In this document: positions 38,728 through 40,491 of the stretch, in pieces
How the letters are laid out: each line of letters opens with the position of its first letter
Position numbering within the stretch: position 1 is the first letter of the stretch
Source: Burkholderia pyrrocinia
Lineage (GTDB): Bacteria; Pseudomonadota; Gammaproteobacteria; Burkholderiales; Burkholderiaceae
DNA: 64,000 nt
Assembly: GCF_022809715.1 (NCBI RefSeq)
Contig: NZ_CP094461.1
Location: 682,001-746,000, forward strand
Direction: 5' to 3'
Notes under the pieces: model-generated
What the model was told of the DNA's origin: nothing
The model's database searches: none
The model's input: the letters and a program-made list of their open reading frames with translations, nothing else
Translations under genes and position numbers: made by a program

Positions 38728-38745
38728 CGTATCCGCTCGGATACG
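38728..38745. promoter_or_regulatory. hipBA operator 1 (perfect palindrome)
   Basis: GTATCCG-CT-CGGATAC plus one flanking C/G pair is a perfect 18-bp inverted repeat. Its TATCC...GGATA core matches the E. coli HipB half-sites, with 4 instead of 8 bases between them. Confidence 0.75.
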
Positions 38746-38778
38746 GAAATGCCGTTGCCTGCGATTCGATGCCATCCG

Positions 38779-38794
38779 GTTCCCGCTCGGGAAC
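38779..38794. promoter_or_regulatory. hipBA operator 2 (perfect palindrome)
   Basis: GTTCCCG-CT-CGGGAAC, a perfect inverted repeat starting exactly 50 bp after the first (38729 to 38779). Half-sites differ from operator 1 at two positions, symmetrically. Confidence 0.72.
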
Positions 38795-38828
38795 GAAACG
38801 ATCATCCAGTCACCCGTGGAGCACTTTC

Positions 38829-38844
38829 GTTTCCGAACGGATAC
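38829..38844. promoter_or_regulatory. hipBA operator 3
   Basis: GTTTCCG-AA-CGGATAC, starting exactly 50 bp after operator 2; one mismatch between halves. Confidence 0.72.
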
Positions 38845-38879
38845 GAATCAATGCCCGAACCCGCAAGTTGTGCAATACT

Positions 38880-38895
38880 GTTCCCGCTCAGATAC
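38880..38895. promoter_or_regulatory. hipBA operator 4
   Basis: GTTCCCG-CT-CAGATAC starts 51 bp after operator 3 and ends 17 bp before the hipB start. A TGCAATACT extended -10 element (38872-38879) abuts it, so binding here would block transcription. Confidence 0.7.
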
Positions 38896-38912
38896 GAAGC
38901 ACGGAGAACGTC

Positions 38913-39197
38913 ATGCCGGAGACTCGGTCCGTCAACACGATCGGCGCCCTCGCCAACCTCATTCGCGCCGTGCGGCTCCAGCAGGGGTTCACGCGGGACG
39001 AACTCGCGAACGCCACGGGGCTCTCGCCGAAATTCATCAGCCAGGTGGAAGCCGGGAAGCCGACCGCGCAAATCGGCAAGGTGCTGCTGCTGCTCGGCGA
39101 ACTGGGCGTAAGCCTGTTCGCGCAGTCGTCGATCGAGATTTCGGCGGAAAACGCGCTCAAGGCCGCTCGACGCCGCAGGAGCAGCCATGGCGGCTAG
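38913..39197 (+). CDS. hipB: HipB-like helix-turn-helix antitoxin
   Basis: A 94-aa Cro/C1-type DNA-binding protein (LANLIRAVRLQQGFTRDELANATGLSPKFISQVEAGK in parts), the antitoxin and autorepressor of a HipBA module. The C-terminal tail after residue 72 is short and basic. The start follows GGAGAACGTC. It overlaps the toxin gene by 11 bases, typical for toxin-antitoxin pairs, and four palindromic operators precede it. HipB should dimerise, bind these sites and hold HipA inactive. Confidence 0.9.
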   Translation: MPETRSVNTIGALANLIRAVRLQQGFTRDELANATGLSPKFISQVEAGKPTAQIGKVLLLLGELGVSLFAQSSIEISAENALKAARRRRSSHGG

Positions 39198-40491
39198 AAC
39201 GTTGATCGCGTCCGCGAACGGGCTGCGCATGGGCACGCTGACCGACGACAAGGGCATCTGGTCGTTCACGTACGACGCGCAGTGGCTCGCGTCGCCGCAC
39301 GCGTACCCGCTGTCGCCCGCGTTCGCGCTGCGCGCCGGTACCTTCACCGACAGCTCGACCGATCGCCCGGTCCAGTGGTTCTTCGACAACCTGCTGCCCG
39401 AAGAAGGCATGCGGACGTCGCTCGCGCGCGAGGCGAAGGTCGATGCCGCCGACGCGTGGGGCCTGCTCGCCTACTTCGGGCGTGAATCGGCCGGCGCGCT
39501 CACGCTGCTGGCCGAAGGCGAGCAGGAAGCGGCCGGCAGCATGCAGCCGCTTGGGCTCGACGAACTCGAGCGCCGCATCCAGGCGATGCCCGAGCACGCG
39601 CTGACGGCCACCGCGCCCAAGCGCATGTCCGCGGCCGGCGCGCAGCAGAAGCTGCTGCTGATCCTGCGCGGCGACGCGCCGGACTACGCGCTGTTCGAAC
39701 CGGTCGGCAGCGAGCCGTCGATGCATCTGCTGAAGCCGGACATGCGCGCCGCCGGCTATCCGCATTCGGCGATCAACGAGTTCTTCTGCATGAAGCTTGC
39801 GAAGCGGATGGGCCTCGACGTTCCGGACGTGCATTTTCTTCGCGCACCGTCCGCGTGCTACGTGATCGACCGCTTCGACCGCGACACCGCATCGCAGCCG
39901 GCCGGACGCCTGCACACGATCGATGCGATGCAGCTGCTGAACTACGATCGCGGCTTCAAGTACCAGCGTGCGAACGCGGAGGAGCTCGCCCGCGCGATCG
40001 GGCAGACCAGCACGCGCGCCCTCGCGCGCCTGTCGGTGTTCCGCTGGACGATCTTCAACGTGGTGGTCGGCAACGGCGACGCGCACCTGAAAAACCTGTC
40101 GTTCTTCGTCGACGCGCGCGGCTACCGGCTTGCGCCGTTCTACGACATCGTCAGCACGGTCGTCTATCACACGCCCACGCACCGGCCCGACCATCGCGGC
40201 GACCACTGGCCGCACTGCGAACTGACGATGCCGCTCGGCACGGCGACGCGGTTCTCCGATATCGACATGGGCGCGCTGATCGCGTTCGGCAACGCGCTCG
40301 GGCTCAAGGAGAAGGCGGCCGAAAGCGAGCTTCGGCGCTTTCTCGAACCGCTCGATCGCAGCGTCGCGCAGACGCTCGACGAAGTGCGCGAGATCGCCCG
40401 CCCCGATGCCGGGGAAATCCGCCTGCTTAACTCAATTGCGTCGATGCCGATCGCGGAGATGGGTCGCGCGCTTCGTCAGGCGCGCGGATGA
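39187..40491 (+). CDS. hipA: HipA-like serine/threonine kinase toxin
   Basis: Kinase toxin of 434 aa. Key residues of E. coli HipA are all present: the autophosphorylated serine of the P-loop-like motif is S148 in RMSAAGAQQKL, the ATP-binding lysine K183 in MHLLKPD, the catalytic D298 in GNGDAHLKN and the Mg-binding D320 in FYDIVST. It is therefore probably active; HipA phosphorylates glutamyl-tRNA synthetase and induces dormancy. The N-terminal subdomain with PVQWFFDNLLPEEG is intact. Translation is coupled to hipB by the 11-base overlap. Confidence 0.92.
   Translation: MAARTLIASANGLRMGTLTDDKGIWSFTYDAQWLASPHAYPLSPAFALRAGTFTDSSTDRPVQWFFDNLLPEEGMRTSLAREAKVDAADAWGLLAYFGRESAGALTLLAEGEQEAAGSMQPLGLDELERRIQAMPEHALTATAPKRMSAAGAQQKLLLILRGDAPDYALFEPVGSEPSMHLLKPDMRAAGYPHSAINEFFCMKLAKRMGLDVPDVHFLRAPSACYVIDRFDRDTASQPAGRLHTIDAMQLLNYDRGFKYQRANAEELARAIGQTSTRALARLSVFRWTIFNVVVGNGDAHLKNLSFFVDARGYRLAPFYDIVSTVVYHTPTHRPDHRGDHWPHCELTMPLGTATRFSDIDMGALIAFGNALGLKEKAAESELRRFLEPLDRSVAQTLDEVREIARPDAGEIRLLNSIASMPIAEMGRALRQARG

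Follow-up and report, generated by a model that had tools for sequence, protein, structure and literature searches.

Operator pitch upstream of hipBA falls into two classes that follow the HipA clade, with a 50-bp array in Burkholderia as a local case

Introduction

The hipBA operon of Escherichia coli has long been known for its four cooperative operators, as described in passages of two papers (PMC3920265, PMC3376134). HipA kinases split into clades, and the passages of PMC8262856 that deal with hipBA modules place those of E. coli K-12 and Caulobacter crescentus in clade I. For the related HipBST system, excerpts of PMC10627512 describe a HipB dimer that holds two HipST units apart, an arrangement that is reminiscent of Shewanella oneidensis HipBA on DNA (PDB 4PU3) and is set against E. 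coli HipBA (2WIU), whose complex is compact; the same excerpts ascribe the HipA of 4PU3-4PU5 to S. oneidensis. Searching the Protein Data Bank with two queries from the side of the HipA tree studied here retrieved only two sets of full-length HipA chains, the E. coli-type chains and 4PU3-4PU5.

Here, we analyse a hipBA locus in a 64-kb stretch of DNA (hereafter the window) and compare its operator array with those of hipBA loci in other bacteria. The array proves to be a local case of a general rule, according to which the distance between successive operators follows the clade of the adjoining HipA, and we propose a mechanism by which this pitch might be held.

Results

A hipBA operon preceded by four candidate operators

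The window lies on the third contig of its genome (G000:C3:682001-746000), and its nearest hipA loci are those of Burkholderia. On the forward strand, hipB (38913..39197) encodes a 94-aa Cro-type HTH protein, by family an antitoxin and autorepressor (Pfam HTH_3, E 5.6e-10; NCBIfam couple_hipB, E 1.3e-13, under the cut-off of that model). It is followed on the same strand by hipA (39187..40491), encoding a 434-aa HipA kinase with the Pfam domains Couple_hipA and HipA_C. The two genes overlap by 11 bp, so that the gene for the HTH antitoxin immediately precedes the toxin gene and is coupled to it, as in type II toxin-antitoxin systems. The kinase core is intact, with S148, D298 and D320 corresponding to E. 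coli S150, D309 and D332 in alignments, including that with 2wiu. Gene order, domains and kinase core mark the locus as a probable hipBA type II toxin-antitoxin operon. A second hipA of the same genome, located on another contig (G000:C2:972118-973269; L219, L271), belongs to the E. coli HipA clade, and no operator array was found for it.

Upstream of hipB lie four sites, none assigned to a strand: the most distal site 1 (38729..38744), a perfect palindrome of GTATCCG-CT-CGGATAC; site 2 (38779..38794), likewise a perfect palindrome (GTTCCCG-CT-CGGGAAC); site 3 (38829..38844), GTTTCCG-AA-CGGATAC; and site 4 (38880..38895), GTTCCCG-CT-CAGATAC, which overlaps the predicted transcription start. 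Successive sites begin 50, 50 and 51 bp apart. All four sites were identified by direct reading, repeat search and conservation, and an unsupervised repeat search recovered the identical four-copy family with the same three spacings. Direct reading and this search bear out the coordinates, sequences and spacing given in an earlier reading of the DNA made without database searches (the sequence-only reading). An IUPAC pattern, built post hoc from the four sites themselves, had these four as its sole matches in the 64-kb window at zero mismatches, and became unspecific, yet over-represented, when up to three mismatches were allowed (156 matches versus a shuffled mean of 73.1). In the 7.69-Mb genome (three contigs), the pattern matched eight times, four of them inside the 167 bp of the array, and a reversed control pattern gave zero matches. 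Because about 2.7 strand-matches per genome are expected by chance, as estimated from base composition, the four further genomic matches need no explanation. A wider hip regulon was rejected on the same grounds, with just these four other matches in 7.69 Mb, roughly the composition expectation.

Directly before site 4, inspection by eye revealed an extended -10-like element, TG-C-AATACT (38871..38879, forward strand), which would belong to the hipBA promoter and has no good -35; a consensus promoter scan did not report this element. Sequence flanking site 4 reaches 1.74 bits in 31 regions of Burkholderia, compared to 0.38-0.63 for the flanks of sites 1 to 3, as expected of a promoter.

Site positions are kept across Burkholderiaceae

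A search with the window HipA found a match at E <= 1e-60 in 46 of 65 genomes from the genus, and a wider HipA search gave 144 relatives, the best 80 of which were kept and yielded 78 loci. Twenty-one loci for which no HipB was found by similarity were absent from the site-chain scan and present in the later motif-blind survey. In the Burkholderiaceae set (L007-L075; Burkholderia, Paraburkholderia, Caballeronia, Trinickia and Pandoraea, duplicates included), the site chain was present at 69/69 loci, with four sites at 64 of them, three at four and five at one. Of its 204 steps, 203 measured 50-52 bp (50 bp, 93; 51 bp, 108; 52 bp, 2), and the remaining one, in L061, measured 61 bp. L031 and L045 have one more site, which precedes site 1 by 41 bp. 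The locus of Paraburkholderia xenovorans LB400 (L056) reads 51/51/51.

Many loci duplicate others, and representatives at 80% identity were therefore used for trees and survey, as were 32 distinct Burkholderia regions. Four sites in steps of 50-52 bp were found in 31 of these 32 regions, the exception being L063 with three sites. The steps of the 31 regions followed the patterns 50/50/51 (17 regions), 51/50/51 (8), 51/51/51 (3), 50/51/51 (2) and 50/50/52 (1), and site 4 stood at -33 relative to the hipB start in 30 of them. Operators carried about 1.7 bits per position in the Burkholderia regions versus 0.38-0.63 for the flanks of sites 1 to 3; the positions of the sites are kept while the intervening spacer sequence diverges. 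The comparison of related upstream regions that the sequence-only reading had proposed hence found both the four sites and their phasing retained. Palindromic operators in the promoter, a hallmark of hipBA, are here recognised from sequence and conservation; with number, position and phasing kept in relatives, the four sites are very probably hipBA operators, in line with the original assignment.

A second Burkholderia hipBA family (L126-L128, L130, L131, L356), with HipA about 44-46% identical, has its own 49-51 bp array, made of AAACTGTTCGATCGAACAGTTT-like palindromes and located farther upstream of hipA.

A motif-blind survey reveals two pitches

In a first look at distant hipA loci, with slightly different settings, steps of 49-51 bp were seen with palindromes as unlike as AATCC..GGATT, AATCTAAG..CTTAGATT, AATCGAAA..TTTCGATT and TAGCC..GGCTA. 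For the motif-blind survey, the region from -750 to -120 relative to the hipA start was searched for the highest-scoring pair of palindromes (16-22 bp each, at most 170 bp apart) that resemble one another, and a pair was called significant if its score was reached by at most 1 of 40 dinucleotide shuffles per locus. The survey loci included all 82 matches listed from 398 genomes of the phylum, with at most four candidates scored per genome. Significant palindrome pairs were found for 86 of 106 representatives, compared to 12 of 105 control regions farther upstream, of which one was at a ruler distance. The survey distances showed two peaks, one near 50 bp and one near 27 bp.

The two distances were mapped onto a tree of 107 HipA proteins, with five HipA under 380 residues left out. 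Its labels were 50 (55 rows), 27 (33 rows, including E. coli K-12), none (12) and other (7), assigned by a rule that itself contains ruler windows. The L072 and L094 stretches contain a stop; both were excluded from alignments A1 and A2, and proteins in general were cut at the first stop. Over the 88 labelled representatives, the tree requires a single change between rulers. The 27-bp clade, which includes E. coli, holds 43 rows, among them six without an array and four labelled other, and is separated by a branch of 1.21 with an SH-aLRT support of 100; the window row (L139) lies outside this clade. A second tree, which took only 36 new loci, selected by length and label rule, again showed one change with a support of 100 over 124 labelled rows.

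The pitch is predicted by the HipA clade in a new sample

The new sample consisted of 66 previously unseen matches listed from 369 genomes of the class, with at most four candidates scored per genome. The clade of each locus was predicted first by its best match to the labelled set, and arrays were then called with the same settings. Among the 39 loci predicted as 50, 29 had a 50-bp array and none a 27-bp array, whereas seven were not significant, two read other and one was too short. Conversely, 18 of the 27 loci predicted as 27 had a 27-bp array and none a 50-bp array, with eight not significant and one other. Prediction and ruler agreed at 47/47 ruler-bearing loci, and 19/66 loci were uninformative or odd. 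Significant pairs were found in 50/65 test regions versus 7/60 control regions; two of these controls showed a ruler-like distance (L318 at 27, L274 at 100), and control regions may in some cases reach into far-upstream arrays.

The gap histogram, which is free of ruler windows and contains significant arrays only (136 of 171 loci), separates the two sides of the tree. On the window side (84 loci, 184 gaps), 160 gaps were 49-52 bp long and one was 26-28 bp long; of the 126 gaps at 52 loci in the clade of E. coli HipA, 108 were at 26-28 bp and none at 49-52 bp. A run of three sites was commonest on both sides (59/84 loci on the window side and 28/52 in the E. coli clade). Operator sequences were entirely different between subclades. 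With spacings of 50/50/51, the window array falls in the 50-bp class, defined by successive operators 49-52 bp apart. In L216 (G121:C32), a locus of the E. coli HipA clade, eleven palindromic operators precede hipA, each step being exactly 27 bp. A scan of viral contigs returned five weak relatives.

No significant pair was detected at 35 of the 171 surveyed loci (20/106 representatives and 15/65 new-sample loci), and some significant arrays showed other distances, for example L106, L197, L201 and L217, as well as L275, L302 and L333 in the new sample. Several exceptions to the 50-bp pitch deviate by approximately one helical turn (61 bp in L061, 41 bp in L031 and L045, 40 bp in L170), and a middle step of 37-39 bp between 28-bp steps is found in E. 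coli K-12 (39), L186 (39) and L192 (37). A rule of plus or minus one helical turn for such exceptions is suggestive only, as other odd distances occur too.

Plasmids and genomes with both pitches

A set of 18 plasmid records was picked for diversity before their arrays were seen, some of which (L353, L356) closely resemble loci of the preceding surveys. Steps of 49-51 bp were seen in 14 of the 17 records of the 50-bp side at no more than 1/40 shuffles; for L349, the best pair was another palindrome with copies 48 bp apart, its operators being 50 bp apart. The other three failed the threshold, among them that of Vibrio nigripulchritudo, which reads 49/49. The sole record of the 27-bp side reads 28, below significance. 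A plasmid of Arcobacter cloacae, which belongs to another phylum (Campylobacterota), reads 50/50. Genes for Fic family proteins were noted near plasmid hipBA in three unrelated hosts (L340, Sulfurospirillum; L344, Pseudoalteromonas; L352, Sphingobium).

Five genomes carry both rulers, and each operon in them has the pitch of its own HipA clade: 50/49 and 28 in G403 (L162/L188), 51/50 and 27/27 in G493 (L281/L322), 49/50 and 27/23 in G563 (L304/L316), and 49/50 and 28/28 in G766 (L301/L335), while G679 has two 50-side loci (L297, L305) next to 27/27 and 28/28 (L327, L331). The presence of both rulers in one genome indicates that pitch follows the operon and not the host with its nucleoid proteins and supercoiling. 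Pitch is a property of the HipA clade that is kept while the operator sequence changes, a rule that is strongly supported by these observations.

Discussion

What sets the pitch

The sites, their conservation, the two rulers and the single change in the tree are computed; repression, binding by HipB, contacts among the complexes and the role of HipA as ruler are inferred. Our preferred reading, which we consider probable, is that the sites are autoregulatory hipBA operators whose pitch is held by adjoining HipA2-HipB2 complexes in a fixed geometry, the E. coli branch having another geometry. Each palindrome would be bound by a HipB dimer carrying two HipA molecules. At site 4, which lies on the putative transcription start, this would block RNA polymerase, and occupation of sites 1 to 3 would prolong the assembly upstream. 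Adjacent HipA2-HipB2 complexes would meet in a single invariant geometry, most probably through their HipA subunits, and selection would keep the pitch at 50 +/- 1 bp whichever palindrome the local HipB reads, with HipA of the E. coli branch adopting another assembly geometry and a pitch of 27 +/- 1 bp. Contacts between HipA2-HipB2 complexes are favoured because, according to passages of two reports, the N-terminal subdomain of E. coli HipA takes part in dimerisation when DNA is bound (PMC6581861) and G22S is believed to impair the dimerisation of HipA within complexes on operators (PMC7029023).

At 10.5 bp per turn, 50 bp correspond to 4.76 turns (274 degrees), 51 bp to 4.86 turns (309 degrees) and 27 bp to 2.57 turns. 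As neither pitch amounts to an integral number of turns of B-DNA, simple same-face stacking fails to explain either of them. The sequence-only reading, which had placed all four sites on the same face of the DNA, is thus right only approximately: its view would hold with an effective repeat of about 10.1 bp, as might be found in a left-handed wrap, but does not at 10.5 bp per turn.

Could the pitch instead be set by HipB and DNA mechanics, with operator bends, perhaps aided by a nucleoid protein, adding up to a superhelical path? In passages of two papers, the E. coli operators are described as bent by 70 degrees on binding and as bound cooperatively by HipB at all four sites (PMC3920265; PMC3376134), and since HipB and HipA travel together, the same tree would be expected if HipB were the ruler. 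Against this reading, however, the pitch stays at 50 bp although palindromes and spacers are completely different from one subclade to the next, and a host factor is difficult to reconcile with the E. coli branch, which has the same HTH fold and a quite different pitch even within one genome, as seen in five genomes. We regard this alternative as unlikely.

Two further alternatives appear far less probable still. Tandem duplication of a 50-bp unit is a simple route to evenly spaced sites, and the operators might then be independent and their even spacing merely historical. Yet adjacent spacers on the 50-bp side are scarcely more alike than shuffled ones (identity 0.290 versus 0.269, compared to 0.751 for operators; 80 comparisons), and the pitch is kept across subclades with unrelated palindromes and with two to five sites; duplication as the source of the pitch was rejected on the spacer comparison, and we consider independent operators highly improbable. 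That the sites bind another regulator and that hipB is merely adjacent is conceivable for candidate operators known from sequence alone. However, arrays track the HipA clade in chromosomes and plasmids, paired hipBA operons of a single genome carry the arrays of their respective clades, and site 4 keeps its -33 position from the hipB start in 30/31 Burkholderia regions, leaving very little room for such a regulator. Cooperative HipB-HipA assembly would best explain the conserved pitch, and the survey suggests that the protein complex itself measures DNA.

Within such an assembly, base-specific HipB contacts are not the ruler, since the palindrome varies between subclades and the pitch is constant. 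Because HipB and HipA travel together, the survey does not separate the two as the measuring protein. Residue differences between the HipA clades are very numerous and spread over the entire protein, so that the determinant could lie in HipA or in HipB, and no residue determinant could be singled out, as too many alignment columns separate the clades. High-persistence mutations at the HipA-HipA interface include D88N and P86L. The E. coli D88 column holds D in 25/43 rows of the 27-bp clade, and G (42/64) or A (11/64) on the other side; the D291 column holds D in 42/43 rows of the 27-bp clade versus A in 24, T in 15 and D in 15 of 64 rows; and the G22 column differs little between clades.

HipB was extracted for 49/52 loci of the 27-bp clade and 78/84 loci of the 50-bp side. 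Its last residue is aromatic in 45/50 sequences of the 27-bp clade (E. coli added) compared to 3/78 on the 50-bp side, where an aromatic residue is found within the last four positions in 9/78. The window HipB ends in HGG and thus lacks the aromatic end of the E. coli type. An aromatic tail as the sole ruler was rejected, since L291, L305 and L308 on the 50-bp side keep an aromatic end and show 49- and 50-bp steps; it is a correlate and not the ruler.

Meaning of the two rulers

The spacing might further report the quaternary structure of HipBA, with two ancient superstructures, a compact one at 27 bp in the E. coli branch and, on the window and Shewanella side, an extended one at 50 bp whose HipA2-HipB2 units would form a regular toxin-storing lattice on the promoter. 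We put this forward tentatively, at slightly less than an even chance; if true, pitch alone would reveal from the genome which assembly a hipBA locus forms. Control of the persistence kinase is linked to the way in which HipA, HipB and DNA assemble at the promoter. That so strict a pitch outlasts changes of operator sequence is a pointer to selection acting on protein geometry. Pitch separates the two HipA branches in one step, offers an easy way to recognise, from sequence, hipBA operators whose palindrome is not a known one, and leads to predictions on spacing, site number and phase that are directly testable. In the passages searched in the open-access literature, we found neither a 50-bp class nor a two-ruler rule across HipA; this negative does not prove the rule to be new.

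Comparison with known systems

Like the window, E. coli K-12 hipBA has adjoining genes for an HTH antitoxin and a HipA kinase with the same core catalytic residues, and four palindromic operators that end near the hipB start. The two loci differ in their half-sites (TATCC-N8-GGATA in E. coli versus TATCC-N4-GGATA at site 1 of the window), in operator spacing (28/39/28 versus 50/50/51, the latter outside a pitch of 26-28 bp), in the HipA clade (E. coli inside and the window outside the 27-bp clade) and in the HipB C-terminus (Trp versus Gly-Gly). The sequence-only reading had drawn the parallel with E. coli and had noted the N4 spacing of the half-sites, which is correct for site 1. The parallel itself extends to the number of operators, but not to their pitch, which is 28/39/28 in K-12 and mostly 26-28 bp in its HipA clade. 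For C. crescentus hipBA1 and hipBA2, passages of PMC7029023 describe series of inverted repeats at intervals consistent with the higher-order complex of E. coli; in these passages, the comparison is with E. coli only and a 50-bp class is not mentioned.

According to passages of PMC10653801, Legionella pneumophila HipBST resembles the window in having evenly spaced operators, three in number, which are bound by HipB in gel shifts, and differs from it in its 18-nt sites, its 53-bp gaps and its split toxin. From these values, its sites would lie about 71 bp apart from start to start; with 10.5 bp per turn, 71 bp and 50 bp are equal in helical phase. S. oneidensis HipA (PDB 4PU3/4PU5) falls among 50-bp rows, the smallest set around it comprising five labelled rows, all 50. 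In BLAST, it scores 360 bits with L302 of the 50-bp side versus 132 bits with the best row of the 27-bp clade; the array of L302 itself was called other, and the next matches, L305 and L303, read 50. S. oneidensis HipA and the window HipA are related only distantly, and Shewanella is placed here through its HipA. Judging from these placements and from the excerpted structural descriptions, extended complexes may go with a pitch of 50 (or 71) bp and compact ones with 27 bp.
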